Part shown: one piece after another, positions 25,517 through 41,510 of the stretch | How positions within the stretch are numbered: position 1 is the first letter of the stretch | How the letters are laid out: each line of letters starts with the position of its first letter | NCBI RefSeq assembly: GCF_001679785.1 | Contig: NZ_CP016287.1 | Coordinates: 868,001-932,000 of the forward strand | DNA length: 64,000 bases | Reading direction: 5' to 3' | Origin: Rhizobium leguminosarum | GTDB lineage: Bacteria > Pseudomonadota > Alphaproteobacteria > Rhizobiales > Rhizobiaceae | Position numbers and translations under genes: made by a program | Notes under the pieces: generated by a model | Told to the model about the DNA's origin: nothing | Database searches by the model: none | Seen by the model: only the letters and a program-made list of their open reading frames with translations

Positions 25517-26839
25517 TTAGGCTGGTACGCGGGTCCGTACCTTCGGGAACAAAAGTGTAGCGATTAGCCCGGATCGATCCCGCCTGTTTGAAATCTCTAT
25601 ATGAACGCCGTATCGATCGGCCACAGTTCTGGCGATCGACAGTCCAAGGCCGCTGCCTTCCACTCCCGTATCGGCCACGCGATAGAAGCGGTCGAAAACT
25701 CGGTCCTTGAGCTCTTCCGGAATGCCGGGTCCGGTATCTGTGATCGTTAGCAGTGCCGTTTCGCCGTCAACGCACACGGCAACATCGATTTCACCGCCCG
25801 GCATCGTATATTTGACCGCATTGTCCACCAGGCATTCGATCATAACGCGAAAATCGGTGGCGTAGCCTGAAACCGTGACTGCGTCCGCGCGGACAAGTCC
25901 AAGATCGACGCCCTTGGTGTCTGCAATGGGCGAGAGGACCGCAATGACTTCGAGCGCCAGCGCATCGAGCGCGACACCATCGTCGCGTGCCGGGCGTTGT
26001 TCTGCTTCTTGGCGGGCAAGGCGCAAGAGCTGATCCGTCAGCATCGCGGCGCGGCGCACACCGCTCTCCAGATCGACGATACGGTCGGCGGCTTCCGGAT
26101 CGGTCACTCGCGCCTTCAGATTTCCGACTTGCAGGGTGACTGCTGCAAGCGGCGTGCGCAACTCATGAGCGGCATCCGACAGGAAGGCCCTCTGCTGGTC
26201 GATTACGCTACGAAGACGTGACAGCGCGCCATTCATCGCTTCGACAAGGGGACGCGCTTCACCGGGAACACCATCGAGACGGATCGGCGTTGTGTCCGTT
26301 GGCGACCGTCGCTCAACGTAGCGCGTCACCTCCGTCAGCCGGCGAATGACCAGCCCGACCAGCCAGTACACCAGCCACCAGGAAAAAGGGATGGCGACAA
26401 GGAATGGAACGGCCGCGCCAAGGGCGGCATTTGTGGTCAGTTCATCGCGTACGACAGTCTGTTGTGCAACTTTGGTAACGTGGTCAGCACCGGCAAGCGT
26501 AAACAACCGCCAATGCGTGTTGCCGGCATCGAACTCGCTGAAGCCCTCGGGTGAAGGGTTGGGTATGGTAACCGCTGTGGAGGATCTGCGTGTGGCGCGT
26601 CCGTCCGGATAAACGACTTCGACGATGTAATCTTCGTCCGCTTCATGCGCCGGCAATGCCGTGGTGCTGACCTTGAGCGAACTGCCGTCACCGACAAACC
26701 GGGCGATCTGGTGTTGTTGCAGATCAAGCAGGTCCCAGGTTTCGCCCTGTGCCGACCAGTACGCGAAACCGGCCGCCAGAAAGCCGATCAGGGTCAAAAG
26801 CAACGAGAAGGCGAGAACGAGGGAACGGCTGAGCGACAT
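25517..26839 (-). CDS. Sensor histidine kinase (QseC/PmrB type)
   Basis: 440 residues: an N-terminal membrane helix (LVLAFSLLLTLIGFLAAGFA), a periplasmic domain of about 130 residues, a second helix (AAVPFLVAIPFSWWLVYWLV), HAMP-like linker, HisKA with the phospho-acceptor His in SDAAHELRTPLAAV, and an HATPase domain (N box ECLVDNAVKYTMPG; G boxes DTGPGIPEEL and GSGLGLSIARTVAD). The start overlaps the response regulator stop (TGATG). It should phosphorylate the regulator encoded directly upstream; the signal is unknown. Confidence 0.92.
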   Translation of the reverse strand: MSLSRSLVLAFSLLLTLIGFLAAGFAYWSAQGETWDLLDLQQHQIARFVGDGSSLKVSTTALPAHEADEDYIVEVVYPDGRATRRSSTAVTIPNPSPEGFSEFDAGNTHWRLFTLAGADHVTKVAQQTVVRDELTTNAALGAAVPFLVAIPFSWWLVYWLVGLVIRRLTEVTRYVERRSPTDTTPIRLDGVPGEARPLVEAMNGALSRLRSVIDQQRAFLSDAAHELRTPLAAVTLQVGNLKARVTDPEAADRIVDLESGVRRAAMLTDQLLRLARQEAEQRPARDDGVALDALALEVIAVLSPIADTKGVDLGLVRADAVTVSGYATDFRVMIECLVDNAVKYTMPGGEIDVAVCVDGETALLTITDTGPGIPEELKDRVFDRFYRVADTGVEGSGLGLSIARTVADRYGVHIEISNRRDRSGLIATLLFPKVRTRVPA

Positions 26840-27501
26840 CAGATTTCTTTCCGCACCATCCAGCCGGCGCCGCGAACGTTGCGGATGATATCCTTGTCAA
26901 ACTTCTTGCGGACATAGTGGATCAGCACGTCAATGGCGTTGCTCTCAACCTCTTGCCCCCAACCATACAAACGCTCTTCGAGTTGCGCCTTAGACAGGAT
27001 CGTGCCCGGACGTTCCGTCAAAGCCTGAAGCAGCGCGAACTCGCGCGCCGGAAGCGCTTCCGTGATCCCACGGTAAACGACAGTGTGGCTGGCAAGGTCG
27101 ATCGTGATCTCACCGGCACGAATGGACGACTGCGCCTGGCCTGCATGCCGTCGCTGCACGGCGCGGATACGTGCAAGCAATTCGCCGATTTCAAAGGGCT
27201 TTACAACATAGTCATCCGCGCCGATGTCAAGGCCGGCGATCCGGCTATCGAGGCTATCTCGGGCTGTAATAATGATGATGGGCGTCTTTTGCCCAGCATT
27301 GCGCGCGCGTTCAAGCACTTTGGTGCCATCGAGTTTCGGCAGGCCAAGGTCAAGCAGGATCATGGCGTGACCGCCGACGGCGATCGCCTCTTCTCCGCTT
27401 TCGCCGTCCCTCACCCAGTCGACGCTCATGCCGGCATCGCTCAGCGCCTGAACCAGACTTTTGCCGATCATCAGATCGTCTTCTATCAGCAACATCCGCA
27501 T
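26839..27501 (-). CDS. OmpR/QseB family response regulator
   Basis: 220 residues. Receiver domain with acidic pocket (LLIEDD), phospho-acceptor Asp in MILLDLGLPKLDG, and the conserved Lys in DYVVKPFEI. The C-terminal winged helix (LTERPGTILSKAQLEERLYG, VLIHYVRKKFDKDIIRNVRG) is complete. Partner of the downstream kinase. The nearby cytochrome b561, COG4705 and exported genes are plausible targets, though no operator was identified. Confidence 0.93.
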   Translation of the reverse strand: MRMLLIEDDLMIGKSLVQALSDAGMSVDWVRDGESGEEAIAVGGHAMILLDLGLPKLDGTKVLERARNAGQKTPIIIITARDSLDSRIAGLDIGADDYVVKPFEIGELLARIRAVQRRHAGQAQSSIRAGEITIDLASHTVVYRGITEALPAREFALLQALTERPGTILSKAQLEERLYGWGQEVESNAIDVLIHYVRKKFDKDIIRNVRGAGWMVRKEI

Positions 27502-28618: not shown

Positions 28619-29509
28619 ATGCTGTGGCGGCTCCGTCCAATGTTGGAGCACAGGATCACTTTGAGGATCGGACGCTTGAGAACTCTGGCCGCAGGAAAAA
28701 CGCTTTTTGTTTTTATCCCGGGGCTGTTTTTCATGGCGTCGTTAGCCGAGGCCACCGATGTCGGGACAACCTCAAATTTGGGGGAAACCGGCACTTGGAT
28801 CATGACGCTCGGTGCAGGCATCGAATACGGCCCGAAGTTTCCGGGTTCGAAGCATCACGGTTTCAGCGCTATGCCCTCCTTCGATATCAGGCGTTTCGAC
28901 GAGCCGGATGAGAACAGCGCGCCGGACGACAATATCGATTATGGCCTTATCGACGTCGGCGGCTTCGAGGCTGGTCCGGTGCTCGGGTTCCGCGACAGCC
29001 GTTCGCACTCCGATGACGACGGGCTAAAAGGCATTCATTCGGTGCATTGGGGCGTCGATGCCGGCGTCTTCGCGCAATACTGGGCGATCCCGAACCGGCT
29101 GCGGTTCCGCTCGGAAATCCGCCAGGCGGTATCGGACGGCAGCGGTCTGGTCGTCGATGTCGGCGCCGATTGGTTTAAGCCGCTCGGCGAGAAATGGCTC
29201 TTCTCGGCCGGTCCGCGCGCCTCTTTCGGCAACGGCGCCTATATGCGGAAATATTTCGGCATCTCTTCGACGGAAGCATCGCAGAACGGTGCCCTGCCCA
29301 CCTTCGACGCAAAAAGTGGTTTGAAATCGATCGGCTTCACGGCCTCTGCCGCCTATGATGTGACGCCGACCTGGACGCTGCAGCTTTACGACCGCTTCGA
29401 CCGACCGACAGGCGATGCAGCCGATAGTCCGATCACCTCGAAGCTCGGAGCCAAGAACCAGAATGTGATTGGCATTTCCCTCAGCAAGGCCTTCAGCGTC
29501 AATTTCTGA
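28619..29509 (+). CDS. MipA/OmpV family outer membrane protein
   Basis: 296 residues with a signal sequence (TLFVFIPGLFFMASLAEATD) and a beta-barrel pattern. Family blocks are visible: WIMTLGAGIEYGPKFPGSK, ISFDIRRFDE-like SAMPSFDIRRFDEP, SEIRQAVSDGSGLVVDVGAD, SAGPRASFGNGAYMRKYFGI and a C-terminal aromatic-terminated strand (GISLSKAFSVNF). MipA/OmpV proteins are outer-membrane scaffolds or porin-like channels. The start may be 28619 or the ATG seven codons later. It is transcribed towards the end of the eight-gene minus-strand operon. Confidence 0.88.
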   Translation: MLWRLRPMLEHRITLRIGRLRTLAAGKTLFVFIPGLFFMASLAEATDVGTTSNLGETGTWIMTLGAGIEYGPKFPGSKHHGFSAMPSFDIRRFDEPDENSAPDDNIDYGLIDVGGFEAGPVLGFRDSRSHSDDDGLKGIHSVHWGVDAGVFAQYWAIPNRLRFRSEIRQAVSDGSGLVVDVGADWFKPLGEKWLFSAGPRASFGNGAYMRKYFGISSTEASQNGALPTFDAKSGLKSIGFTASAAYDVTPTWTLQLYDRFDRPTGDAADSPITSKLGAKNQNVIGISLSKAFSVNF

Positions 29510-29528: not shown

Positions 29529-29894
29529 TCAGTCGTTCCGCTGCGAGGCCGTTGCGATGCACCAGATGCCGATCAGGATGAGGCCGCTCCCGGCAAGCTG
29601 AAGCAGCGGCAATGGCTCGCCAAATGCGTACCAGGCGATGGCCATGATAAAGACATAGCTGATCGCCGTAAGCGGGAACGCCTTGCTGATATCGAGCTCT
29701 GAAAGCACCCTCATCCAGATCGCAAAGCAGGCGATCTCCGCCACAATCGCTGCCAGGAACCAGTGCGAGGAGAGGATCTGCACGAGCCAGTTCCCGCCGG
29801 AATTGCCCGATTCCTCGGCGCTGCGCTTCAGCAATATCTGCTGCACGGTGTTCAGAAGCGGTACGGCAAGCCAGATCGGCCGCATCACGCTCAC
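29529..29894 (-). CDS. Small four-helix DMT (EamA/SMR-like) transporter, second of a pair
   Basis: 121 residues, four predicted membrane helices: IWLAVPLLNTVQQILLKRSA, FLAAIVAEIACFAIWMRVLS, AFPLTAISYVFIMAIAWYAF and GSGLILIGIWCIAT. The LSELDISKAFPLTAISYVFI block is the half-size DMT signature shared with ArnE/ArnF flippase subunits. Last gene of the eight-gene cluster, starting in the GNAT stop (ATGA overlap). A second half-size DMT gene (32721-33071) lies in the same operon, so a heterodimeric exporter or flippase is likely (inference). Confidence 0.8.
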   Translation of the reverse strand: MSVMRPIWLAVPLLNTVQQILLKRSAEESGNSGGNWLVQILSSHWFLAAIVAEIACFAIWMRVLSELDISKAFPLTAISYVFIMAIAWYAFGEPLPLLQLAGSGLILIGIWCIATASQRND

Positions 29895-31063
29895 GCCTCC
29901 ACCTCGCCGCCATCGTCGGCGGTTAGCAGCGGCGATATCTTCTTAAGGATGAATTGCAGCACGGGATTGCGATGGCGGAAATAGATCGCATTTGCCGTCA
30001 GATGGCTGCCGAGCCGAACCTTGTTGCGATAATAGGCCTGACCGCTCTGATAGCGGCCGATACCGTAGCGCAGGCAGTATTCGAGATTGTTGAACCAGCT
30101 GAGATAATAGAGATTGTAACGCCTCCCCTCCTCCGCATCCATACAGAAGAATTTGTCGATCAGCCTGTTCTCGTCATGGACCAAGAGGTTGGCGGCCAGC
30201 AATTCGTCATCGACGAAATACATCGTGCAAAAGGAATGTCCCGGCATGCTTTTCAGGATGCCGTCGAAATAGGCTGGTGTCAGCTCTTCGAACTGCCATT
30301 CGCTCCGCTGCCGCGTCTCCAGATAGAGTTGCATAACACGCGGCAGGAGATCGCCGAATTCGGCTCGGTATTCCACCCGGACCTTCTCACGGCCGCGCAG
30401 CTTGCGGCGCATGTCCTTGCGTGTTCCCGGTGAAAGACTTGCGAAATATTCGTCAATCGTGTTGAAATCGATATCCAGCCATGCTGTCGGCATGCCGCCG
30501 ATCTCGGCATAGCCGCTGGAGGACAGAACCGGCTCGGTTCGCGACGGGATGGGCTGCGGTAGATCCTTCAGCGCCATCAGCGAGCACCTTTCGGCCTGCG
30601 CATGCGCCTCGAAAGCTTCGAGAAGCTGGGCAAGGAGTGCCGGCCGCCGGGCTTGCGCAATTTTCGGATGAAAGCCGATGGCACCCGTCTCGGTGCAGGG
30701 GGAACCGAGACAGGCAAGACGAAGCGTCAAGAAGCCATTGAAGGTGCTGCGGATCTTTTCGACCGCCCGTCTGATGCGGCCGGCTTCCAGCGTCGTCTCC
30801 AGGGCGTAGCGGCAGAGGAATGCCGGCATGGCAGCAACGATCTCGCCACATTCGCGCACGACCACGTAGCGCCAGTCGAACCCCTCGATGCCGGCCTCCT
30901 CGACCACAAGCAGATAGTCATAGGTCTCGATCTCGTCGGGGAAGCAGGCATTCCAGGCTTCGCGGCCAAGCATGCGAATGCTCCGGACGATGGCGGCTCC
31001 GGATATGATGTCGCTTGAGGCGACCGCCTGAGGGGTCTGCACCCTAAGTGCTTGCTGCTGCAT
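29891..31063 (-). CDS. GNAT acetyltransferase, BioF2/FemAB-like (Acetyltransf_6)
   Basis: 390-residue soluble protein. The central and C-terminal parts match the BioF2/CelD-type double-GNAT fold: FASLSPGTRKDMRRKLRGR, LLPRVMQLYLETRQRSEWQF, CTMYFVDDELLAANLLVHDE, FFCMDAEEGRRYNLYYLSW and GIGRYQSGQAYYRNKVRLG. Members transfer acyl or aminoacyl groups to amines. The start overlaps the preceding hydrolase gene by 20 bp and its stop overlaps the next transporter. In this operon it could acylate an amine produced by the aminotransferase (inference). Confidence 0.8.
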   Translation of the reverse strand: MQQQALRVQTPQAVASSDIISGAAIVRSIRMLGREAWNACFPDEIETYDYLLVVEEAGIEGFDWRYVVVRECGEIVAAMPAFLCRYALETTLEAGRIRRAVEKIRSTFNGFLTLRLACLGSPCTETGAIGFHPKIAQARRPALLAQLLEAFEAHAQAERCSLMALKDLPQPIPSRTEPVLSSSGYAEIGGMPTAWLDIDFNTIDEYFASLSPGTRKDMRRKLRGREKVRVEYRAEFGDLLPRVMQLYLETRQRSEWQFEELTPAYFDGILKSMPGHSFCTMYFVDDELLAANLLVHDENRLIDKFFCMDAEEGRRYNLYYLSWFNNLEYCLRYGIGRYQSGQAYYRNKVRLGSHLTANAIYFRHRNPVLQFILKKISPLLTADDGGEVEA

Positions 31064-31859
31064 ATTCCGCCTCGAAGAATTCTGCCGTCACGTCCGCAAC
31101 ATGCCTGTGCTGCCGGTCGACATGGATCATGTGATAGCTGTCATCGAGCCAGCGAAGCTCGCGGCGTCCGCCGATATGCGATGCGATATATTGGGCGTGC
31201 CCCGGGCCGCTCAGATCGTCTTCGCGCGAATGCAGGATCAAGGTCGGTGTGCGCATCTCGGGAAGACGCGCTTTCAGCGCCCGGCCAAGTTCATGCATCT
31301 CGATCAGGCCGCGTCCCGGGAAGGTTTCGAGCATACCCTCGCCGATCATGCCGGCCACCATTCGGCGCATGCGCTCGTCCTTGATGCCCAGCGAGGGTGT
31401 TTCCCGAAAACTCAGGCGGTCAATGAAAGGAATAAGCGATATCCAGCGGATATGCGGTGAGAACAGCGAATAATAGCGCGGCACGTTCCACCCATCGTAG
31501 TGGAAGCAGGGCGAATAGACGGCGACGGCGCGGATCGACAACGGATTCCGGTCGGCCGCCATCATCGCCAGCTTGCCGCCTACGCAAATTCCGGCGGCAA
31601 AGACCATATCGCTGCGTTCGGAAAGCCAGTCGCCTGCCGCCTCGACGCTGTCAAGCCAGTCCTCCCAACGCGAGCGCCGCAGCACCGCTTCGTTTTCGCC
31701 ATGGCCGGCGAGAAGCGGCGCGTAGACGCTGAAGCCGCGGCGGTGGAATTGCCTGGCCACCAGCCGCATCTCGGCCGGCGCGCCCGTCAGGCCGTGAACG
31801 AGGACGACGGCCTTGCCGTTCGTGCCTTCGAGAAAGAAGGAAAGCCCGTCAGCTGGCAT
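31044..31859 (-). CDS. Alpha/beta hydrolase (Est30/monoacylglycerol-lipase-like) with Cys at the nucleophile elbow
   Basis: 271 residues from ATG 31859. Oxyanion motif VVLVHGLTGAP, elbow AGICVGGKLA, acid in LILHSREDDLSGPGHAQYI and His in DDSYHMIHVD, which is the carboxylesterase/serine aminopeptidase_S33 arrangement. At the elbow the usual GxSxG Ser is Cys (TGC codon), giving a Cys-Asp-His triad as in dienelactone hydrolases. Cytosolic; the substrate is unknown, with an acyl ester or thioester suggested by the neighbouring desaturase and acyltransferase. The start overlaps the desaturase end by 11 bp. Confidence 0.82.
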   Translation of the reverse strand: MPADGLSFFLEGTNGKAVVLVHGLTGAPAEMRLVARQFHRRGFSVYAPLLAGHGENEAVLRRSRWEDWLDSVEAAGDWLSERSDMVFAAGICVGGKLAMMAADRNPLSIRAVAVYSPCFHYDGWNVPRYYSLFSPHIRWISLIPFIDRLSFRETPSLGIKDERMRRMVAGMIGEGMLETFPGRGLIEMHELGRALKARLPEMRTPTLILHSREDDLSGPGHAQYIASHIGGRRELRWLDDSYHMIHVDRQHRHVADVTAEFFEAEYAAAST

Positions 31860-32724
31860 GCGGAAACTCTCCCTGCTGCCGGTTCTCCTTCGCCATGAAG
31901 CCCAGGGCATGGCATGTACTGATGACATGTGTGCCGGCCGCTTCCTGCTCCTGCTTGAACTGCTCGTGGAAATTCTTGAGCTTCGTCCAATGCGTCTTCG
32001 GGCGGTAGTGATGTTCGGCGTGGTAGCCGTTGCCGAACCAAAGCCAGTTGTAGAAGCGGTTATGGCTGCTGACGCCCCAGGCGATCGGCTCGTCGGGGTC
32101 GCCGTTCAGGTGCTCGTAATAGCCATTGAGGGAGGAGAGGCAGTTGCCGAGATAATAGAAAGGGAGGAAGAAGAAGGCAGCCTTCCAGTCGTAGAAAAGG
32201 GCAAGCAACACGAAGACGACGAAGGCGATTAGCTCGAAGCGCCCCCATTTCGCCTCGAACGGCCGCTTGCTGGCGATGGCCTGGTGGATGTCGCCAATAT
32301 CGTCACGGAAGAAGCTGAAGAACGTGTAGGAGAAGACGTTTTCTGGCTCGCCATTTTTTCCGTGTTTGTAGATGGACAGGAGGTCCACCGTCTCGCCGTT
32401 TTCATTGGGGCGGTCGCTGTTGCCGGAATGATGGCGCATATGGACCCAGTGATAGTAGACCTGCGAAAAGCCGATGGTCACCGATTCCAGCAGACTGAAG
32501 GCGTAGTTCATCCACTTCGGTTTAAAGTATGGCGTATGGATGAAATTGTGGGAGATGCTGTTGATGTTCCACGAGATCGACACGGCATAGACCGCGCCGA
32601 GGACCGCCGACTGCCAAAGCGGACGGCTCTCGAAGCCTGCGATCAGGTAGATGTTGAAAGCCAGATGCGCGATGGCGGCAAGCACCGGCACGGTATCCCA
32701 TTTCGTATGTGCGAAGATTTTCAT
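31849..32724 (-). CDS. Membrane fatty acid desaturase family protein
   Basis: 291 residues, four to five membrane segments. The three His boxes of the di-iron membrane desaturase/hydroxylase family are seen: HNFIH (in SISHNFIHTPYFK), HMRHH (YYHWVHMRHHSGNSDR) and HAEHH (FGNGYHAEHHYRPKTHW). It inserts a double bond or hydroxyl group in an acyl or alkyl chain at the inner membrane. ATG 32724 overlaps the stop of the small DMT gene by 4 bp (ATGA). The substrate could be a free lipid or one attached to a carrier. Confidence 0.88.
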   Translation of the reverse strand: MKIFAHTKWDTVPVLAAIAHLAFNIYLIAGFESRPLWQSAVLGAVYAVSISWNINSISHNFIHTPYFKPKWMNYAFSLLESVTIGFSQVYYHWVHMRHHSGNSDRPNENGETVDLLSIYKHGKNGEPENVFSYTFFSFFRDDIGDIHQAIASKRPFEAKWGRFELIAFVVFVLLALFYDWKAAFFFLPFYYLGNCLSSLNGYYEHLNGDPDEPIAWGVSSHNRFYNWLWFGNGYHAEHHYRPKTHWTKLKNFHEQFKQEQEAAGTHVISTCHALGFMAKENRQQGEFPHAS

Positions 32725-33071
32725 AGTCCCGTCGCTCCGACACAGACCACGCCGAGCGTCACCAGGACGATGCCGAGCGCGTGGCGAAGATTGATGGTTT
32801 CCTTGAAGATGGCCGCGCCCGCAAAAGCGATCGCCGCATAACTCAGCGCCATCAGCGGAAATGCCACCGACAGCGCCACCTCTTCCAGCACGCGCGTCCA
32901 CATCACCAGCTCGAAGCCCCAGAAAGTGATGCCGAGCCAGATCACCGGCTTCTGCAGGGTCTCAGCGAGCACGCTCGTCGCGCCGTGCTTGAAGCACAGT
33001 TCACGCCCGGTCTCCGCAAGAATGCAGAAGAGGATGGCCGCGAGCGTCCATCCGGTCCGCCCCGTCGTCAT
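32721..33071 (-). CDS. Small four-helix DMT (EamA/SMR-like) transporter, first of a pair
   Basis: 116 residues, four helices (WTLAAILFCILAETGRELCF, WLGITFWGFELVMWTRVLEE, VAFPLMALSYAAIAFAGAAI, ALGIVLVTLGVVCVGATGL). The VLEEVALSVAFPLMALSYAA block aligns with the other DMT gene of the operon (VLSELDISKAFPLTAISYVF), so the two are paralogues. Half-size DMT pairs such as ArnE-ArnF flip lipid-linked sugars; others export amines. Start and stop overlap both neighbours by 4 bp. Confidence 0.8.
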   Translation of the reverse strand: MTTGRTGWTLAAILFCILAETGRELCFKHGATSVLAETLQKPVIWLGITFWGFELVMWTRVLEEVALSVAFPLMALSYAAIAFAGAAIFKETINLRHALGIVLVTLGVVCVGATGL

Positions 33072-34021
33072 GGCATCAGCTCCGAAAGCACTTCGAGCAG
33101 CGCATGATTTGCCGCACTGTTGATATTGCGGGTCGCCATCATATCGCGTCGCCTGAAAGGTTGGTCGATCAGCACTTCGGCCTTTTTCATCGTGCGGGTA
33201 TAGAAATCGCCACCATATTGCGGCGTGGAATAATCTCCGGTCACGTCAGCGCCGATGACGCGATGGTGTTCGCCGATTTCACTTAAGAGCCAGAGGACAT
33301 ACGGAAGCTGCATGCAGCCTTGGTCCCAATTGGTGACGGCATCGGCGTCGGACAGAGCGTCTTTGTCGATGGTGACATAGACCGCCTCGGTCTGGATGCG
33401 TCCGAGCAGCTTGTCGACGAAGTTAGCCTCACCGAGTTCCGATATCGATTGCCAATGCAGGGCACCGTCGACCTGGCTGAAGCTTGGGCCTGACCCATAG
33501 CTCGACTTCACTTTGCTCGGCGGGTGCATATAGGGATAGAGCTCCAGTCGGCCGTCGGACAAAGGCACGAGATTGGCGCCCTTGCGCTCCGGCGACTTGA
33601 GGTCGTGGCTGCAGACGCCGAGCGTTATCACCTTCTTGACGAGCGGCTGCTCCAGCGCCTTGTTGACCCAGGAGCCACAATGCATGCCGTTGTCGAAATG
33701 CACCCAGTCGGGATGGTTGTCGATGTGAACGACGGTCACCGGCTGGCGACAACGCTCCAAAGCGAGCGATAAGAGCAGCGCGGTCACATGATGGAAGTCA
33801 CCGGAGCCCATGAAGCAGAGCCGTGACCCCTCGCGCGCGAGGGGTGCAGCCTTTGCCAGGTTGCGCCATACCCCGTCCAGCGCCTGCTGCCGGCCCCAGA
33901 GCCGGATAGCGCCGCCGCTTTCCTTGTCGCTGACTTCGTGCGCCCCTGCCATCATGCAGGAGCGCACGAAGTCGGGTTGCAACTCCAGCGCATCATCGAG
34001 ATGAAGAAGAAGGAGTTGCAA
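33068..34021 (-). CDS. Ureohydrolase (arginase/agmatinase-fold) family protein
   Basis: 317 residues. The metal-binding pattern of arginase-like enzymes is kept in divergent form: a His in GSGDFHHV, VVHIDNHPDW (like DAHxD) and VYVTIDKDALSDADA (like SxDxDxxDP). Overall similarity to arginase or agmatinase is low, so guanidino hydrolysis is not certain; histone-deacetylase-like amide hydrolysis on the same fold is also possible. Its end overlaps the DMT gene by 4 bp and it starts 3 bp after the aminotransferase stop. Confidence 0.7.
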   Translation of the reverse strand: MQLLLLHLDDALELQPDFVRSCMMAGAHEVSDKESGGAIRLWGRQQALDGVWRNLAKAAPLAREGSRLCFMGSGDFHHVTALLLSLALERCRQPVTVVHIDNHPDWVHFDNGMHCGSWVNKALEQPLVKKVITLGVCSHDLKSPERKGANLVPLSDGRLELYPYMHPPSKVKSSYGSGPSFSQVDGALHWQSISELGEANFVDKLLGRIQTEAVYVTIDKDALSDADAVTNWDQGCMQLPYVLWLLSEIGEHHRVIGADVTGDYSTPQYGGDFYTRTMKKAEVLIDQPFRRRDMMATRNINSAANHALLEVLSELMP

Positions 34022-34024
34022 GGA

Positions 34025-35437
34025 CTATCTCCGTTCCGCGCGGGCTAGCAGCTGACCGAGAAGCGAAATCGCAAGCTCGATCTCCTCGTGGCTGATCATC
34101 AGGTTCGGGGCGAGCGTGATGACGTTCTTGTGGTAACCGCCGACATCGAGCACCAGGCCGTATTTCTTGCCGTCGACGACCAGATCGCCCTTCATGCCTT
34201 CATCGGACATCCAGTCGAGCGTGGCCTTGTCGGGCGTAAATCCATCCGGCTTGCAGATCTCCATGCGCAGCGCCAGGCCGAGGCCATCGACATCGCCGAT
34301 GACTGCGTGCTGCGACTGCAGGTCCTTGAGGCCTTCCAGGAAGTGCGCGCCCTTCACCATGACGCTGGCGCCGAAGTCGTTTTCCGAGACCATCTTCAGC
34401 GTCTCGACCGCGACCGACGTCCCCATCGGGTTGCTGGCAAAAGTCGAATGGGTGGAGCCAGGCGGAAAGATCGTCGGATTGATCATCTCTTCCTTGGCCC
34501 AGATACCGGAAAGCGGATTGAGGCCGTTGGTGATTGCCTTGCCGAAGACCAGCACGTCGGGCGATACGCCGAAGTGTTCGATCGACCACAGCTTGCCCGT
34601 CCGGTAGACGCCCATCTGGATTTCGTCGACCACAAGCAGGATGCCGTGATCGTCGAGAACCTTCTTCAACTCCGTAAAGAAGTTCATTGGCGGGATGACA
34701 TAGCCGCCGGTTCCCTGGATGGGTTCGACATAGAAGGCCGCATATTCAGACTTTCCGGCCTTCGGGTCCCAGACGCCGTTATATTCGCTTTCGAAAAGCC
34801 GGGCGAATTTCTGCACGCAATAGTGACCATATTCCTCCTTCGACATGCCCTTGGGGCCCCGGAAGTGGTAGGGAAACTCAATGAACTGCGCGCGCTCGCC
34901 GAAATGGCCGTAGCGCCGGCGATAACGATAGCTCGAGGTGATCGAGGTCGCCCCCAGTGTGCGCCCGTGATAGCCGCCTTCGAAGGCGAACATCAGGCTT
35001 TTGCCTTCGCTGTAATTACGCACGATCTTCAGCGAATCCTCGACCGCCTGCGAACCGCCGACGTTGAAATGCACCCGGCCCTTGGTGCCGAATTTCTGTT
35101 CGGCATCCTTGGCGATCATCGCCGCGAGCTCCACCTTTTCGCGATGCAGATATTGCGACGCGACCTGCGGCAGCCGATCGAGTTGGCGGTGGGCGACATT
35201 GTTCAGGCGCTCGTTGCGGTAGCCGAAATTGACGGCGGAATACCACATCTGCAGATCGAGGAAGGGCGTCTCCGTTGCATCATAGACGAAGGACCCATCG
35301 CACGATTCGAAGAATTTCGGCCTTTGCGAATAATGGACGGTGTCGCCGTGGGAGCAGTAGGCCTCTTCGAGCAGGCGCAACTCATCCTCGGAGATGACGA
35401 GATCCGTGGTATCGGCAAGTTTCAGATTGGAACGCAT
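34025..35437 (-). CDS. Class III PLP-dependent aminotransferase
   Basis: 470 residues. Family motifs: FNVGGSQAVEDSLKIVRNY (phosphate-binding region), FEGGYHGRTLGATSITSSY, EPIQGTGGYVIPP, LLVVDEIQMGVYRTGKLWS and the PLP-Lys in VLVFGKAITNGLNPLSG. It resembles acetylornithine/4-aminobutyrate/diaminobutyrate-type omega-aminotransferases but has a C-terminal insert (DWMSDEGMKGDLVVDGKKYG) unlike the standard enzymes. Predicted to put an amino group on a carbonyl substrate or produce a diamine. It starts 12 bp after the phosphatase gene. Confidence 0.88.
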   Translation of the reverse strand: MRSNLKLADTTDLVISEDELRLLEEAYCSHGDTVHYSQRPKFFESCDGSFVYDATETPFLDLQMWYSAVNFGYRNERLNNVAHRQLDRLPQVASQYLHREKVELAAMIAKDAEQKFGTKGRVHFNVGGSQAVEDSLKIVRNYSEGKSLMFAFEGGYHGRTLGATSITSSYRYRRRYGHFGERAQFIEFPYHFRGPKGMSKEEYGHYCVQKFARLFESEYNGVWDPKAGKSEYAAFYVEPIQGTGGYVIPPMNFFTELKKVLDDHGILLVVDEIQMGVYRTGKLWSIEHFGVSPDVLVFGKAITNGLNPLSGIWAKEEMINPTIFPPGSTHSTFASNPMGTSVAVETLKMVSENDFGASVMVKGAHFLEGLKDLQSQHAVIGDVDGLGLALRMEICKPDGFTPDKATLDWMSDEGMKGDLVVDGKKYGLVLDVGGYHKNVITLAPNLMISHEEIELAISLLGQLLARAERR

Positions 35438-35449
35438 GAAGTCCTCTTC

Positions 35450-36133
35450 TCACGCAGATTTTGCCACGGGCAGCGCAAAGGGCTGCCGTGACGGGCTGGA
35501 AAGGATGCCTGCGACAGACGCCTGAATATCGGCGAAGCTGTCATAGGGGATGAAGGGGATGCGCTGCGCGTGGCAGTAGTCGGCAAGTTTCGCCTTGGCA
35601 AAGACCAGCATCGGCTCATGCGAGACGCAAAAGTCGCTGCGGCCGTCGCCGACATAGATCTGGTCGCCTGATGGCTTCACCAGGTCACATTTGCAGACGC
35701 CGGAGCCGCCAGCGCAGGCAGCGCTCATAAACGGAAAATCGAGATCGAAGGCTGCTTTACCGGCATCAGAGCCGCCGACCAGCCGGTTTGCGATGATCTG
35801 GATATCGGACAGGCCATGCCGCGCAAGGACGCGGCTGATGAAATGGTCGACGCCGTCGCTGACGATGATGAGGCTGAGCCCCGTTCTCTCGCAGAACTCC
35901 TTGAAGGCCACGAAGGCGCTGTCGATTTCGATCGTGTCGAGGAACGCGTCCAGTTCTTCGCGTGTCGCCTCAATCAACCGGACCTGGCGCCGCATGCACT
36001 GGGCCGAGGTGATCTTGCCGTCGATCCATTGATCTTCGATCTCGTGCCATTCGGGAAGCGCGAAACGCTCCAGGACGAGATCGGTCACGTCCTCTTTCGA
36101 TATGGTCCCGTCGAAATCGCAAAATACCTGCAT
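35450..36133 (-). CDS. HAD-superfamily phosphatase, MtnX/SerB-like
   Basis: 227 residues from ATG 36133 (ggag Shine-Dalgarno 8 bases upstream). HAD motifs: FCDFDGTIS (nucleophile Asp), LIIVSDGVDHFISR, KCDLVKPSG and VGDGRSDFCVS. A Cys-rich loop, CAGGSGVCKC, matches MtnX-type phosphatases. It acts on a small phosphorylated metabolite. First gene of the eight-gene operon, starting 90 bp after the two-component kinase on the same strand. No other methionine-salvage gene is present, so a different substrate is likely. Confidence 0.83.
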   Translation of the reverse strand: MQVFCDFDGTISKEDVTDLVLERFALPEWHEIEDQWIDGKITSAQCMRRQVRLIEATREELDAFLDTIEIDSAFVAFKEFCERTGLSLIIVSDGVDHFISRVLARHGLSDIQIIANRLVGGSDAGKAAFDLDFPFMSAACAGGSGVCKCDLVKPSGDQIYVGDGRSDFCVSHEPMLVFAKAKLADYCHAQRIPFIPYDSFADIQASVAGILSSPSRQPFALPVAKSA

Positions 36134-36223
36134 CGCATGCTCCGTCAAGAATGTGACAAAGCGTTTAGCGCCGCGAACTGAAGGCAGGATGAGGCCAAGA
36201 TGAAGCGAAACTGAATTCGCGAT

Positions 36224-37591
36224 TCAGGCGGCTGGAATATCCAGATCGACCCTCAGGCCACGTCCCCAGGCGGGCGTGCCGAGGGTGATCCCGATCTCGA
36301 GCCGGTTGCCGATATCGACGACGATCGGCAATCCTAGTCCCGCTCCTTCGCCTGCGTGGGCGTCGAGACGGTTGAACCGCTGGAATGCGGTGTCGCGCTG
36401 TTCGGGCGGGATACCGGGGCCGTTATCCATGATGGAGAGCCGCCACCCGCGCGCGCCCGGCTCGATGCGCACCTCGATCTTTCCACGGTCGGGCGAATAT
36501 TTGATCGCATTATCTAGGAGATTGTCGATCATTACGCGCAGCAGGGCGTGGTCGGTCAGGACATTTGCGTCCTGCGCGCCCACAAGCCCGACATCGAAGT
36601 TTCGGTTGTTCAGCAAGGCGCCAAAATCCGCGACCGCCGCAGCCGCAATTTCCCGCAGCGGCAGCGGTTCGAGCTGTAGCGGCTGGTGGCTCACCCGCGC
36701 CAGCCGCAGCAGCTGCTCGATCAGATGCATGGCGCGATCATTGCTGACGACAAGGTCCTTCAGCAGGGCCCGACGTTCGTCATCGGAATCGGCGCGATCG
36801 AAGAGCTGCAGGAGCAGCTTGATGCCCGCCTGCGGCGTGCGCAGCTGATGGGCGGCAAGATCGGAAAAGCGACGCTCCATCGTCAAGGAGCGCCCGAGCT
36901 TCCGCAGCAGGTTGTTCAGCGAATGGACAAGCGGTGCCAGATCCCGCGGCAGGCCCCGCGTGGCGATCATCGACAGGTCATCCGGCGTTCGCGCCCGGAT
37001 TTGCGATACGAGTTCGCGGATGTTGATGAGCCCGTTGTTGATCGCGAGCCAGATGATAATGGCGATGACGGGCACGAGGATCAGGAGCGGAAAGGCAAGA
37101 TTGAGAAGAATGTTCTCGACGAGACCTTCGCGAAGAACGATCTTCTCGGCAACCTCGATGGTGATGTCGCTGTTGGGGATCGGCAGGGAATAGATCCGCC
37201 AGAGCTCCGCCTGATAGGTCACATCGGAGAAGCCGGCTGTGAACTGCTTGATCTCGGCGGGAAATGCATTGCTGCTGGCAAAGGCCAGCGCCCCGCCCTT
37301 CCAAGCGCGAAACGAATGAGCGTCGGCGTAATCATCCGCATCCTCGTTCAGGGCAAGCTGGTTGTCCATGTTGAAGTCGAGGTCTGGAACCTGCACCGTC
37401 GGCCTTGGCAGCGGCCGTGTCAGCGGATGCTTCATCAACGACCACAGCACGTTGGCATCGTTGATCAGTTGAGCGTCGTAGATATTGTCGATCTCGCGCG
37501 TCGCGCTGCGATAGGCGAAAAAGCCGATGACGGCGATCGTGATGATCAGGGTCGGCAGGATGCGCAGAAAGAGGCGTTGGCTAAGTGTCAC
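36224..37591 (-). CDS. Sensor histidine kinase (second two-component system)
   Basis: 455 residues. First membrane helix FLRILPTLIITIAVIGFFAY, periplasmic sensor region of about 130 residues with an acidic NEDADDYADAHSF segment, second helix (LAFPLLILVPVIAIIIWLAI), HAMP, HisKA with His in DLAAHQLRTPQAGIKLL, and HATPase (DNLLDNAIKYSPDRG, MDNGPGIPPEQR, GAGLGLPIV). Its ATG overlaps the regulator stop by 4 bp. It is upstream and co-directional with the biosynthetic operon, so it probably senses an envelope-related cue that controls it (inference). Confidence 0.92.
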   Translation of the reverse strand: MTLSQRLFLRILPTLIITIAVIGFFAYRSATREIDNIYDAQLINDANVLWSLMKHPLTRPLPRPTVQVPDLDFNMDNQLALNEDADDYADAHSFRAWKGGALAFASSNAFPAEIKQFTAGFSDVTYQAELWRIYSLPIPNSDITIEVAEKIVLREGLVENILLNLAFPLLILVPVIAIIIWLAINNGLINIRELVSQIRARTPDDLSMIATRGLPRDLAPLVHSLNNLLRKLGRSLTMERRFSDLAAHQLRTPQAGIKLLLQLFDRADSDDERRALLKDLVVSNDRAMHLIEQLLRLARVSHQPLQLEPLPLREIAAAAVADFGALLNNRNFDVGLVGAQDANVLTDHALLRVMIDNLLDNAIKYSPDRGKIEVRIEPGARGWRLSIMDNGPGIPPEQRDTAFQRFNRLDAHAGEGAGLGLPIVVDIGNRLEIGITLGTPAWGRGLRVDLDIPAA

Positions 37592-38256
37592 TGCTGCCGC
37601 TCGACCATATAGCCGACGCCGCGGATGGATCGAATGAAATCGGTGCCGAGCTTCTTACGTAGACTATAGACAGTCACCTCGATCGTATTGCTCTCCACGG
37701 AAACATCCGTGTCGTAGAGCGCATATTCGATATCGCTCTTGGTGACATAACGCCCGCTCCGCTCCATCAAGAGGCGCAGGAGGTGAAACTCCTTGGCCGC
37801 CATGTGCAGCTGAACGCCATTATGGCGGGCCACCATCGCCGCGGGGTCGATCTCGACATTGGCACAGCGGATGATCGTCTCGTTGCGCCCCTGGCGCCGA
37901 CGCAGCAAGGCGCGGAGCCGGGCGAGCAGCTCGTCGAGGTCGAACGGCTTACTCAGATAATCGTCGGCGCCTTCATCGAGACCGGTGACCCTATCCCGCA
38001 CACTGTCGAGCGCCGTCAGCATCAGGATTGGAACGTCATTGCCACTTCGCCTTAGCGACCGCACCACATCAAAGCCGCTGGCCTTTGGAAGGTTGACGTC
38101 GAGGATCAACGATCCGTATTCGCTGTCGCGCAGCGCATCGAGCGCCGTTTCGGCATCGCGGAACCAGTCGACGCCATAGGCATGTTTCTCGAATGCCTTT
38201 TTCAGCGAGGAGCCGAGAATGTGGTCGTCTTCGACCAAAAGTATGCGCAACACCAT
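37588..38256 (-). CDS. OmpR family response regulator (second two-component system)
   Basis: 222 residues from ATG 38256. Receiver domain with LLVEDDHILGSSL, Asp in SLILDVNLPKASGFDV and DYLSKPFDLDELLAR; C-terminal winged helix (LMERSGRYVTKSDIEYALYD, VTVYSLRKKLGTDFIRSIRG). Resembles PmrA/QseB/TctD-type regulators. First gene of a run that continues through the kinase and possibly the eight-gene operon; the 90 bp gap between 36133 and 36224 could hold a separate promoter. Confidence 0.92.
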   Translation of the reverse strand: MVLRILLVEDDHILGSSLKKAFEKHAYGVDWFRDAETALDALRDSEYGSLILDVNLPKASGFDVVRSLRRSGNDVPILMLTALDSVRDRVTGLDEGADDYLSKPFDLDELLARLRALLRRRQGRNETIIRCANVEIDPAAMVARHNGVQLHMAAKEFHLLRLLMERSGRYVTKSDIEYALYDTDVSVESNTIEVTVYSLRKKLGTDFIRSIRGVGYMVERQQ

Positions 38257-38631
38257 CTCCTTGCGTTTCAATCTCCGATCCCGTTTCATCCGTCGCGATT
38301 GAGGCCGAAATCCGGCTTCATTCGCTCGGGTTCAACGAAAGGCCCTCGGTTTCAATCTCAAATCGTCGACGACATGAGATGAGGCCGGGGCGACCGTATT
38401 CGACAGATCCGCCGAGCGTTATGATCCGCTGGTTATCGAGAATTCTCATCCTAACTCAAGGCCGAAATGGGACCCTAGGACGATCAACGGCAACGATAGT
38501 GCCGCCGACCGGAATAGCGCCATGCCCGATGAGACCATATACCCCTGCTCCGCGCCTCGAACGTCAGCGAACGATCCCAATTTCGGAGGCGGCACTGAAG
38601 TTTTTAGCAATTTTCTCTTCTGCCGACTGCC

Positions 38632-41055
38632 TTAGGGACATGCAGGAAGATCCGGAGCGCCGCACTTCTTCTTTTCTGCGGCCGGCGGTCTCTTCGCCTG
38701 CTGCTCGACGGTCGCCGGCTTGGGCTGAGGCCGGGGCTTGGGTTCAGCCTGAGGCTTGGGCTCAGCCTGGGGTTTCGATTCAGCCTGTATCTTGGGTTCG
38801 ACCTGCAGTTTGGGTTCGACCTCTGGTTTTGGAGCAGGTACCTGCGCCGGCGCTGCAACATGCGGCTCCCTGGGCAAGGCTGGCGGCGGGGCGACCTCTC
38901 GCGATGGCGGCGGCACAACATGGCGCGGATTGCCGAGCTGCGGCTCGCTGTTGTTTGCAACGCTGGATTTTGCTGGCGTATTGTCCATAATTGCCGGTGC
39001 CGTGGGCTTCGTCGGCAGGCCGTAAACATCGGGTTTCGGGCCTGCGCCACCTCCCCTCGGCTTCGCATTCGGAGCTGTGGTCGGTGCAGGGGTCTTGGCG
39101 ATCTGGCTTTGACCGTTGACGGCAGGTGCGTTGGCCTCGGGCGACCGCGGCTGGCCCTTTGAACCTGGGAGCATATGCGCGTCCGGATTTTCGCTCTGAA
39201 GCGGTGATTGGGCGATCGTCCTCGGATCATGAGCCGTATTGGGCTCTGCTTTGAGCGGCTGCGTTTTTTCTGCGGCAGCCGCTTCCGGCTTGTTCGCCAG
39301 CTTGTCGGCGGGCGGCAGCGGCTGGCCGTTGGCGCCGGGAAGTGCGTGGGTGGCAGGATTTCCGGTCGGTGCCTGCGGCTGAGTTTGGGGCTGGACCGAC
39401 GGGATGGATGCCGGCGCCGGCTTCTCGGCTGCGACCGGGGCCTGCTTTTGCAAGACCGCCGCCTTTTTCTGCACCGAGGGCGGCAAGGCAACGTGGAGCG
39501 CGGCTGCACCTGCCCCGGCGACGACGGCCGCGCCGGCGAGCTTTTCTCCTGTCGTCAATCCGGGCGCAGCCGGTGCGGCCTCGCTCTCGTTGACAACCGT
39601 GTTGTTGACGACTGTGTTGTGAATGTTATTGAAAATGATGTTGTTTTCGGGCGGCGCGACATTGCGCGGGGGTTCCACCCATTCGGGGACCGGAACGAAG
39701 ACCGGAGCAGGCAGCACGTAGAGATCGACCGGTGGTCTGGGCGGCGCAAGCGTCACGAAATCCGGCGGTGGTGGTGAAAGGAAGACGACCGGCGGCGGCG
39801 GCGCATAACCGAAGTCGGCATCATCGAAATACAGGACAGGCCGGTCGACATAGACGATTTCCGGTGGTGGTGGCGGCGGCACGTCATACTCGATCACCGA
39901 AAATGACGGGGGCGGCTCGAGTGCTGCCTCGAAATGCTCCAGACGACGGCGGGCATCCCAGACGTGGGGACCACGCGGATAACGTCTCAGGTAGGACCAA
40001 TAGGCCTCTGGCGTATCCGCATTCGACGTTTCGCGCCAGGTGATCGCTTCGCGGCGTGCTGCAATGATCGCACGCACCCGCCTTGCCATGGCGTCGTTCG
40101 GATAGGCTGCAAGGAAATCCTCGTACCCACGCATCGTGTCGCGATCGAGCGCGGCGAAATAGGCATCGCGTTCGTCGAAGTCGCTGATCGGCTTCGTCCG
40201 GTTAGCGTCATTGTCATAGCTGGACACCTGGTCCGGCGGCGGATTGGGAACACGATCGAAAAACGTGAAGGCGTTCTTGAAGTTGGAGGCATTCCAGGAA
40301 ATCTGCGCACCCTTGGTCAGATCGCTGACCCGCAACCGTGTCCGGGCGAACACATCATCGAGCGGAAGCCCGCCGATGCGGATCATTTCCGCCAGGGCAT
40401 GCGCATAGGAACCGTAAGGACCAGCCTCCTGCGGGGCGACCGTGCCCGGCGCGGCATTGAAGGCGATCAGCTGATTGGCGTCCGGGTCGACGAGCGCCAG
40501 ACCACCGGCCAGCGGCTGAGTGGACTGCACGAATGGATTGGCTCTTGCTGCATCGAGCACGACGATGCTGCCGCGGTTGTTGATGCCGGCCAGCGATCTC
40601 GAGAAATCGGTTATCCGCAGAGCTTCGACCGGCACATCCGTAGCGTTGGCGATCTGGGCGTCGACCGGCAAGAAATAGTTATCGCCCTGATACTGCACGC
40701 CATAACCCGCCAGATAGACGAAAACGACGGTATTGGGTCCCGATGCATTCGCTTTCGTCAGAAAGTCCCGCATCGCATCCCGCAATCCGTTCTGGTCGAG
40801 GTCGCGCGCGCCGATCACGTCGAAGCCGGCGGCCTGCAGCGTTTGCGCAATCAGCCCGGCATCGTTGGCGGGCGTCGGCAAGGCGCCTGCCTTATAGCCG
40901 GCGTTACCCACGACGAGTGCTATTCTCTTTTCAGGGGAACCTTGCGCTTCGACTGGATTTACGGAAGCGATACCGGCCAGAACCAGCACAACGACAAAGA
41001 ATGTCCAGATCGTCCTTTTAGGCGACAATCCTGTTGTCCAAAGAAGGCAAGGCAT
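38632..41055 (-). CDS. Secreted caspase-fold protein with both catalytic residues replaced, plus Pro/Ala-rich tail
   Basis: 807 residues. An N-terminal hydrophobic export signal (WTFFVVVLVLAGIASVNPVEA) is followed by a caspase p20 (peptidase C14) domain: RIALVVGNAGYKAGALPTPA, LAGYGVQYQGDNYFLPVDA, and SIVVLDAARANPF. In active metacaspase-like enzymes the last two read xxGHGxQ and LDACRxNPF. Here His is Tyr118 and Cys is Ala170, so it should be inactive as a protease. From about residue 370 the chain is low-complexity: Pro-rich repeats, an Asn-rich NNIIFNNIHNTVVNN block, and Lys/Pro/Gln/Ala repeats (AEPKPQAEPKP). Probably a periplasmic or surface scaffold. Confidence 0.85.
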   Translation of the reverse strand: MPCLLWTTGLSPKRTIWTFFVVVLVLAGIASVNPVEAQGSPEKRIALVVGNAGYKAGALPTPANDAGLIAQTLQAAGFDVIGARDLDQNGLRDAMRDFLTKANASGPNTVVFVYLAGYGVQYQGDNYFLPVDAQIANATDVPVEALRITDFSRSLAGINNRGSIVVLDAARANPFVQSTQPLAGGLALVDPDANQLIAFNAAPGTVAPQEAGPYGSYAHALAEMIRIGGLPLDDVFARTRLRVSDLTKGAQISWNASNFKNAFTFFDRVPNPPPDQVSSYDNDANRTKPISDFDERDAYFAALDRDTMRGYEDFLAAYPNDAMARRVRAIIAARREAITWRETSNADTPEAYWSYLRRYPRGPHVWDARRRLEHFEAALEPPPSFSVIEYDVPPPPPPEIVYVDRPVLYFDDADFGYAPPPPVVFLSPPPPDFVTLAPPRPPVDLYVLPAPVFVPVPEWVEPPRNVAPPENNIIFNNIHNTVVNNTVVNESEAAPAAPGLTTGEKLAGAAVVAGAGAAALHVALPPSVQKKAAVLQKQAPVAAEKPAPASIPSVQPQTQPQAPTGNPATHALPGANGQPLPPADKLANKPEAAAAEKTQPLKAEPNTAHDPRTIAQSPLQSENPDAHMLPGSKGQPRSPEANAPAVNGQSQIAKTPAPTTAPNAKPRGGGAGPKPDVYGLPTKPTAPAIMDNTPAKSSVANNSEPQLGNPRHVVPPPSREVAPPPALPREPHVAAPAQVPAPKPEVEPKLQVEPKIQAESKPQAEPKPQAEPKPRPQPKPATVEQQAKRPPAAEKKKCGAPDLPACP

Positions 41056-41510
41056 TCAGGTTTCTCCCAATCAACATGTGATGCAGTTCACTGTGAGCCC
41101 CGCAAAGTCGGGGCCAGGTGTATAAGCTTTCGCCAGAGACGGCTGGCGAGCTTTGCATCGCTACTTAGCAATCGTTTATGAGCGCTGGATTAGGCGAAGC
41201 TGAAGCGAAACTGAAGACAAGTCTGTCCCTTCGTAAGCCGCAGGCATCAACGTCCCTGGGCTGGGGCGTCTGGCAAGTCGCCGCGCCGTGAGAGAGCCGG
41301 GATCGTATAGGTCGTCTGCGTTATTTCGGTGACGGACGACTCGGAACACATATCGTCAAAACTTCCTGGCCAGGCACGTACAGCCCGCCCGGTTGCGCCG
41401 ATCTCCGCGAATGAACCCCGACTGAATGATGCCTTCAGCTTTCGTTTCAAAGGGAGCGACTAGAAGAAAGTCGTTCAACCGCGGTCTTATCCGCCTGAGG
41501 AGACATAGTC
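41056..41510. other. Divergent promoter region of the pseudo-caspase and curli genes
   Basis: About 450 bp between divergent genes. It holds a cgaagctgaagcgaaactgaag tract near 41190-41220 that is also found upstream of the MtnX-like gene (aagatgaagcgaaactgaattc, 36198-36218). No convincing coding frame. Confidence 0.45.

Follow-up and report, generated by a model that had tools for sequence, protein, structure and literature searches.

Four described systems lie closest to the locus considered here. Arn modification of lipid A, under PmrAB control, pairs an aminotransferase with two half-size membrane proteins of the drug/metabolite transporter (DMT) type; MprF, the lysyl-phosphatidylglycerol synthase, and FemX are tandem-GNAT transferases; the ornithine-lipid (OlsBA) and bacterial ceramide pathways follow a GNAT-type N-acyltransferase logic that leads to amide-linked aminolipids; and DevBCA-TolC is the glycolipid exporter of heterocyst-forming cyanobacteria. 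Here we describe an eight-gene operon on the minus strand of a 64,000-nucleotide stretch of Rhizobium leguminosarum DNA (positions 868,001 to 932,000 of NZ_CP016287.1; "the window" below), whose contig of 1.25 Mb is part of an 8.57-Mb genome with eight contigs. On balance, comparison of its sequence with related loci makes it somewhat probable that the operon, under the control of envelope stress, directs the synthesis of an acyl lipid of the cell envelope that bears an amine. In transcription order, with the labels used throughout, its genes are:

35450..36133, minus strand: PHO, MtnX-like HAD-IB phosphatase, first gene of the operon (PF12710/PF06888, TIGR01489)
34025..35437, minus strand: AMT, class III pyridoxal-phosphate aminotransferase (PF00202, 249 bits)
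33068..34021, minus strand: URE, arginase-fold metallohydrolase with a divergent substrate pocket, TTG start (Arginase, 44.5 bits)
32721..33071, minus strand: DMT1, half-size DMT membrane protein, EamA/ArnE-like (EamA 24.1 bits, under the 28.2 cut-off)
31849..32724, minus strand: DES, membrane protein of the fatty-acid-desaturase family (PF00487, 92 bits)
31044..31859, minus strand: ABH, monoacylglycerol-lipase-like alpha/beta hydrolase (PF12146, 75 bits)
29891..31063, minus strand: GNAT, tandem-GNAT N-acyl/aminoacyl transferase of the FemAB_like type (FemAB_like/Acetyltransf_6)
29529..29894, minus strand: DMT2, half-size DMT membrane protein, EamA/ArnF-like (EamA 40.5 bits)

An earlier, sequence-only reading had assigned domains to these eight minus-strand open reading frames (ORFs; 29529-36133), and all of them are indeed open and Pfam-backed; for ABH the Pfam match (Hydrolase_4, PF12146, 75 bits) was obtained with the longer frame 31044-31928. 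The genes are tightly packed, with gaps of 12 bp (PHO/AMT) and 3 bp (AMT/URE) followed by overlaps of 4 bp (URE/DMT1, ATGA), 4 bp (DMT1/DES, ATGA), 11 bp (DES/ABH), 20 bp (ABH/GNAT) and 4 bp (GNAT/DMT2, GTGA, provided that DMT2 begins at GTG 29894). Six of the seven junctions are thus 3-bp gaps or overlaps, as had been reported, but the count of four ATGA-type overlaps has to be corrected to three 4-bp overlaps, two of them ATGA and one GTGA.

Conservation of the gene set

Named genomes were scanned with a URE alignment (A1, 15 rows), and the best 80 of 517 confirmed stretches were taken as loci reaching 10 kb from URE (L numbers below denote loci, G numbers genomes). These loci are heavy in Rhizobiaceae and not independent. 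Gene presence was scored by tblastn and the counts are lower bounds: many loci are shorter than 20.9 kb at contig ends (L050, L063, L065, L080 and L098 among others), which lowers the counts, and the merged listing misses AMT and GNAT of L075, ABH of L086 and URE of L092, though separate tblastn searches show them. Row sets of further alignments were picked by hand, A2 with 33 of 35 rows (L086 and L088 left out) and A3 with 32 rows.

The best 80 loci come from Rhizobium, Neorhizobium, Agrobacterium vitis, Phyllobacterium, the Brucella/Ochrobactrum group, Pleomorphomonas, Caulobacter, Phenylobacterium, Brevundimonas, Sphingomonas, Bosea, Vineibacter, Rhodanobacteraceae and Pseudomonas. PHO was found in 77 of them, AMT in 76, URE in 79, DMT1 in 69, DMT2 in 75, DES in 56, ABH in 77 and GNAT in 76. 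A core of five genes (PHO, AMT, URE, ABH and GNAT) together with a DMT gene lies within 10 kb of URE in at least 70 of the 80 loci, and all eight genes occur together in 49. For a control comparison in the same loci, the longest open frames of at least 110 aa were picked mechanically, only nine being near enough to URE for a fair test. These nine control ORFs, from about 22.9 to 44.7 kb of the window, were found, in order, in 0, 0, 4, 0, 2, 1, 0, 0 and 0 of 80 loci, against 56-80 for each of the eight operon genes. The proposal that the set acts together is borne out by this contrast between a core kept across loci and controls present in 0-4, and the refuting condition named in the sequence-only reading, homologous neighbourhoods in which the genes are never together, turned out contrary to it. 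In these genome comparisons the core remains a unit in both Alpha- and Gammaproteobacteria.

Gene order is less constant, the core being retained in a different order in Pseudomonas and Xanthomonas. Seventeen further regions, from searches of the order and the phylum, contain PHO (11), AMT (12), URE (17), ABH (12) and GNAT (14), often in differing order or orientation. One genus has URE only: none of the other seven genes was found within its 20-kb regions (L114, L115), nor AMT at E<=1e-60 in three of its genomes. AMT of the operon type was likewise not found at E<=1e-60 in G198 and G121, where a distant class III aminotransferase (23-25% identity) adjoins DES. The loci of this kind are L116:12864-14210 and L120:12493-13839, in which the distant aminotransferase stands beside a divergent DES and the operon-type AMT is missing.

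The distribution is patchy. Among 297 genomes searched in the order, 13 have a URE homologue, a weak one in two cases, and in the phylum 16 of 398 have one, the window genome being included in both sets; AMT is present on 33 plasmid records. In the AMT tree (37 rows), Pleomorphomonas pairs with Agrobacterium vitis (support 97/91), and G265 (L117), from the window's own family, pairs with Bosea and not with Rhizobium (support 100/99). These pairings suggest transfer of the gene.

Regulator pair and its predicted operator

A two-component system lies directly upstream of the operon, and an outer-membrane protein gene converges on it from the other side:

36224..37591, minus strand: HK, sensor histidine kinase, QseC/PmrB-like, directly upstream of the operon (PF08521, HisKA, HATPase)
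37588..38289, minus strand: RR, OmpR-type response regulator, partner of HK (Response_reg and Trans_reg_C)
36185..36215, minus strand: predicted RR site of 11-bp tandem repeats (one 0-mismatch and one overlapping 2-mismatch site)
41196..41215, minus strand: second 0-mismatch copy of the RR site, before a caspase-domain gene (genome motif scan)
28619..29509, plus strand: MipA/OmpV-family outer-membrane protein, convergent neighbour of the operon (PF06629, 145 bits)

RR was found in 64, HK in 62 and MipA in 51 of the 80 loci; in the control comparison MipA appeared in 45 and the operon's own regulator pair in 57-58. HK scored 172.9 bits with the QseC model (cut-off 475) and 158.6 bits with the PmrB model (cut-off 314), so that neither cut-off was reached.

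Between HK and PHO, positions 36185-36215 hold 11-bp tandem repeats, TTCAGTTTCGC / TTCATCTTGGC / CTCATCCTG. Among the 77 loci with a PHO call, the pattern TCANNTTNGNNTCANNTT, with at most one mismatch and no more than 160 nt before PHO, occurs in 52 of the 64 loci that have RR nearby and in 3 of the 13 that do not; its expectation, calculated over the entire sequence of the loci including the sites themselves, is 0.004 per 160 nt. For a stricter 20-mer, the 8.57-Mb genome contains exactly two sites without mismatch, one before PHO and the other before the caspase-domain gene at 38632-41055; sites with 2 mismatches number seven (one overlapping the PHO site), near the five of the reversed control. 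In 18 further genomes or records a match with at most one mismatch was found in 15, and the reversed-pattern control gave 0 in all 18. The motif precedes PHO in 14 of the 18, in one of which it also precedes a CFA synthase gene. One of the 18 (G659, which holds L030) has two motif sites elsewhere (L170, L173), where no operon-linked gene was recognised and the local ORFs are without annotation. In four Phyllobacterium loci whose CFA synthase gene lies apart, the motif, with one mismatch in three loci and two in one, begins 92 bp ahead of the point where the match to the enzyme sets in. From these positions we infer that RR would control the operon and, in Phyllobacterium, CFA synthase as well. 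An adjacent HK/OmpR-type RR pair with a predicted tandem-repeat site before its targets is the layout of a PmrAB-type regulon.

Further observations concern the same surroundings. In Phyllobacterium, a 1-mismatch motif at L053:5550 (plus strand) stands before the RR gene, which hints at autoregulation. Just past MipA, a second pair (HK2/RR2; window 25517-27501, minus strand) has matches in 58-59 of the 80 loci, probably as cross-hits to the operon's own HK/RR pair. The protein encoded at 38632-41055 (minus strand) combines a caspase domain (PF00656) with a long proline-rich tail and occurs in 2 of the 80 related loci. The His motif is YLAGYG and the Cys motif DAARANP, a possible sign of an inactive caspase fold.

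Enzyme families of the operon

PHO belongs to the MtnX-like HAD-IB superfamily (TIGR01489, 92.7 bits, above the 81.55 cut-off) and scores far under the MtnX equivalog cut-offs (PRK09552, 103.1 vs 292; TIGR03333, 84.9 vs 303.2). Residues D6, D8 and K148 and those of the GDG(x)SD motif are kept in at least 27 of 30 aligned rows. The same holds for cysteines C140, C147, C149 and C169, which may bind a metal or have a structural role. AMT, the most conserved member, is 70-94% identical in the compared loci and keeps K300 in 30 of 30 aligned rows; two of these rows (L116, L120) are the distant aminotransferase, and the AMT counts are lower bounds.

URE retains the arginase fold and the binuclear metal ligands (Pfam Arginase, 44.5 bits vs a cut-off of 22). 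The conserved Glu after GGLxxR, which we take to be the guanidine-binding residue of arginase and agmatinase, is absent: when URE is HH-aligned with the ureohydrolases from five of the seven such loci in its genome, Pro240 stands opposite it, and position 240 varies within the family (P/A/G/Q/D). With the agmatinase model URE reaches 22.6 bits against a cut-off of 174.3. Three of the 32 rows of the URE alignment (L123, L124, L128) look wrong-frame, and residue counts for URE are lower bounds. The ureohydrolase fold proposed earlier thus stands with its metal ligands, but URE is no safe sign of a guanidine-derived head group because the guanidine-binding Glu is not conserved. The closest named relatives of URE are from Rhizobium. 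In genome G085, URE is split over two open frames (L118:9273-10197) with exporter genes nearby, and no AMT was found at E<=1e-60 across the genome; this URE is possibly a decayed copy.

DES is a member of the desaturase family (PF00487, 92.1 bits vs a cut-off of 29.7) with all box histidines (H59, H63, H95, H98, H99, H235, H238 and H239; HxxxH/HxxHH/HxxHH) present in 15 of 15 rows, and a PDB sequence search returned no relative at E<=1. The closest PDB relatives of ABH are monoacylglycerol lipases (E 4.5e-29). Its nucleophile position is occupied by Cys in the window (GICVGG) and, among 91 loci, by Cys in 70 and Ser in 20, with one lacking a call. DMT1 scores 50.4 bits with the ArnE model (cut-off 92) and DMT2 42.9 bits with the ArnF model (cut-off 99); the DMT pair does recall the ArnE/ArnF flippases, as had been noted, but stays far under both cut-offs.

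GNAT (390 aa) is a FemX/MprF-like tandem-GNAT protein. Tandem-GNAT matches span residues 18-385, giving it the synthase fold of MprF without the N-terminal multi-pass flippase domain of that enzyme; identity to the listed FemX and MprF rows is 8-16%. The CoA motif is not conserved (6 of 32 rows), and the nearest paralogues are weak (E 3.7e-5 in a Caulobacter and 1.2e-8 in a Pseudomonas genome). The sequence-only reading had called GNAT a BioF2/FemAB-like acyltransferase. The FemAB_like domain agrees with this, but since the protein is of the FemX/MprF-like tandem kind, the group that it transfers could be either aminoacyl or fatty acyl.

Companion genes in related loci

A CFA synthase homologue occurs somewhere in 40 of the 80 loci, and a pair of FabF-like synthase and acyl carrier protein (ACP) genes in L082, L086, L122, L123 and L143. 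The cluster of Xanthomonas sacchari has FabF-like synthase, ACP, DegT aminotransferase and HlyD/ABC/TolC genes, and on A. tumefaciens pAt-B441 the operon is followed by genes for TolC, an ABC permease, an ATPase and an adaptor. The best family models for the exporter ATPase and permease are DevA and DevC, with scores under the curated cut-offs; the permease was found in 11 of the 80 and 6 of the 17 loci. On A. fabrum pAt2788a the operon is followed by genes for CFA synthase, MipA, EptA and DgkA; EptA, a phosphoethanolamine-lipid A transferase, scores 590.8 bits against a cut-off of 500. Plasmid annotation was read for five of the 33 AMT-bearing records. In three of the 80 loci, all from metagenome-assembled genomes (L078, L079, L084), ArnT, ArnB-like and ArnA-C-terminal-like genes lie upstream of the regulator pair, the families having been checked in L078. 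Finally, a DegT-type aminotransferase is encoded near the DMT genes in 8 of the 17 loci and in L074 and L143. The acyl chain chemistry suggested earlier for the operon gains from these companions: CFA synthase under the same motif, FabF-like/ACP, DevCA-like/TolC, EptA/DgkA and Arn genes, along with the lipase kinship of ABH.

On a bat-associated Bartonella plasmid (L144:11956-17959), AMT, GNAT and a weak arginase-fold protein are encoded together with AlgX-like and MBOAT O-acyltransferase genes. This set is perhaps the minimal chemistry of the pathway.

Putative pathway and alternative explanations

The gene set, the conserved operator, the regulator linkage and the enzyme families emerge from sequence comparison, and from them we infer the substrates, step order, flipping, signal and purpose set out here. 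In the favoured scheme, PHO would dephosphorylate a small head-group precursor and AMT would add the amino group. URE, as a binuclear-metal hydrolase, may cut a C-N bond other than that of a simple guanidine, for example in a protecting amide. GNAT would acylate or aminoacylate the amine, ABH might clip or move an acyl ester, mostly by way of a Cys nucleophile, and DES would tailor the acyl chain, possibly joined in relatives by CFA synthase or FabF-like/ACP. The DMT1/DMT2 pair is predicted to flip the product to the periplasmic side, from where a DevCA-like/TolC exporter could pass it outward in some relatives. The product would probably serve to reduce negative charge or to tighten the membrane, as a defence against cationic peptides or acid.

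Several observations weigh against an envelope lipid made in this way. GNAT has its nearest folds among aminoacyl-tRNA-dependent enzymes, not fatty-acyl transferases, and the enzymes that URE most resembles cleave guanidines and amidines. Desaturation is then optional, since no DES was found in 24 of the 80 loci, some of them truncated where a contig ends. HK stays under the PmrB and QseC cut-offs, so the signal assigned to it is putative, and one of the two 0-mismatch sites precedes a caspase-domain gene without evident lipid role. The EptA link comes from a single plasmid, none of 97 other loci having EptA, and the Arn link from three metagenomic loci that may be one lineage. In HY406, the single Bartonella record that was read, the arginase-fold match beside the AlgX-like and MBOAT genes reaches 20.6 bits (cut-off 22), and apart from it, AMT and GNAT no core gene is annotated within 12 kb. 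The exporter is present in a minority of loci with DevA/DevC scores under the cut-offs, and the product could therefore be a released small molecule.

The last point leads to the strongest rival, which we regard as rather unlikely: a secreted small N-acyl-amine natural product (a signal, antibiotic or metal-binder), exported by the DMT pair with or without the DevCA-like/TolC system, with only incidental membrane effects. It would fit the TolC/ABC/adaptor genes that adjoin the operon in Agrobacterium and Xanthomonas, the permease counts given above, and a patchy URE distribution and plasmid carriage of AMT such as accessory metabolites have. However, the companions include CFA synthase, EptA/DgkA and Arn genes, and the neighbours scanned showed no nonribosomal peptide synthetase (NRPS) or polyketide synthase (PKS). 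In L127, L128 and L129 the giant ORFs next to the cluster, considered as NRPS/PKS candidates, proved to be UvrA-like with ABC signatures.

A FemX/MprF-like system, in which GNAT transfers an amino acid from aminoacyl-tRNA to an acceptor (a lipid or a lipid-linked carrier) that the remaining enzymes produce or modify, appears doubtful, although the fold of GNAT is the one expected for it. Still less probable is a 4-amino-sugar (Ara4N-like) undecaprenyl-linked modification of lipid A, as the ArnE/ArnF-like pair could suggest: DMT1 and DMT2 do match the ArnE/ArnF models, Arn genes lie upstream in the three metagenomic loci, and DegT-type aminotransferases stand near DMT genes as listed above, but the DMT scores are far under the cut-offs and neither a glycosyltransferase nor ArnA, ArnB or ArnD is among the eight window proteins. 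Catabolism of an amine or guanidine by an agmatinase and an aminotransferase with unrelated neighbours is very improbable, since against the arginase fold and metal ligands of URE stand its non-conserved guanidine-binding Glu, its low agmatinase score and the acyl and flippase genes that stay with it across families. An RtxC-like (rhizobitoxine) and a ceramide-synthase-like reading were further candidates considered.

Returning to the envelope-lipid module, we put forward more tentatively, as a possibility short of an expectation, that its product could belong to a class of outer-membrane lipid not described before, induced by stress, with an amine head group, and distributed widely though patchily among Proteobacteria. 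Its synthesis would involve an arginase-fold enzyme diverted from guanidine chemistry and a Cys-nucleophile relative of monoacylglycerol lipases acting as acyl transferase. No family model or annotation that we met names the gene set, and the five plasmid records name the genes singly; the novelty of the operon is provisional. If the proposal is true, rhizobia, agrobacteria, Caulobacter relatives, pseudomonads and xanthomonads would share a so far unnamed surface-lipid pathway with its own regulator and operator, which would matter for the resistance of root bacteria to acid and to cationic peptides from plants, and an arginase-fold enzyme would have a testable non-guanidine role. Thanks to the conserved operator, reporter constructs could test the inducing signal directly.

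Comparison with known systems

The Arn system under PmrAB shares with the operon the two half-size DMT proteins, an aminotransferase and an adjacent QseC/PmrB-like two-component system, and Arn-type genes adjoin the operon in three loci. It differs in that the window aminotransferase is of class III and not DegT, that no glycosyltransferase, ArnA, ArnB, ArnC, ArnD or ArnT is found among the eight operon proteins, and that the operon has desaturase, tandem-GNAT, arginase-fold and monoacylglycerol-lipase-like enzymes. Compared with MprF and FemX, GNAT lacks the MprF membrane domain and is only 8-16% identical, and the partner genes of those enzymes are presumably unlike those of this operon. The OlsBA and ceramide pathways resemble the operon in their N-acyltransferase logic, but neither a PlsC-type acyltransferase nor a serine palmitoyltransferase domain is present among the eight proteins, whose head-group enzymes are PHO, AMT and URE. 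DevBCA-TolC has its likeness in the exporter ATPase and permease genes beside the operon in some lineages, for which DevA and DevC are the best models, whereas the scores fall under the curated cut-offs and the exporter is not part of the window operon. Overall, the operon would be a variant within a known kind of system, the two-component-controlled envelope modifications.

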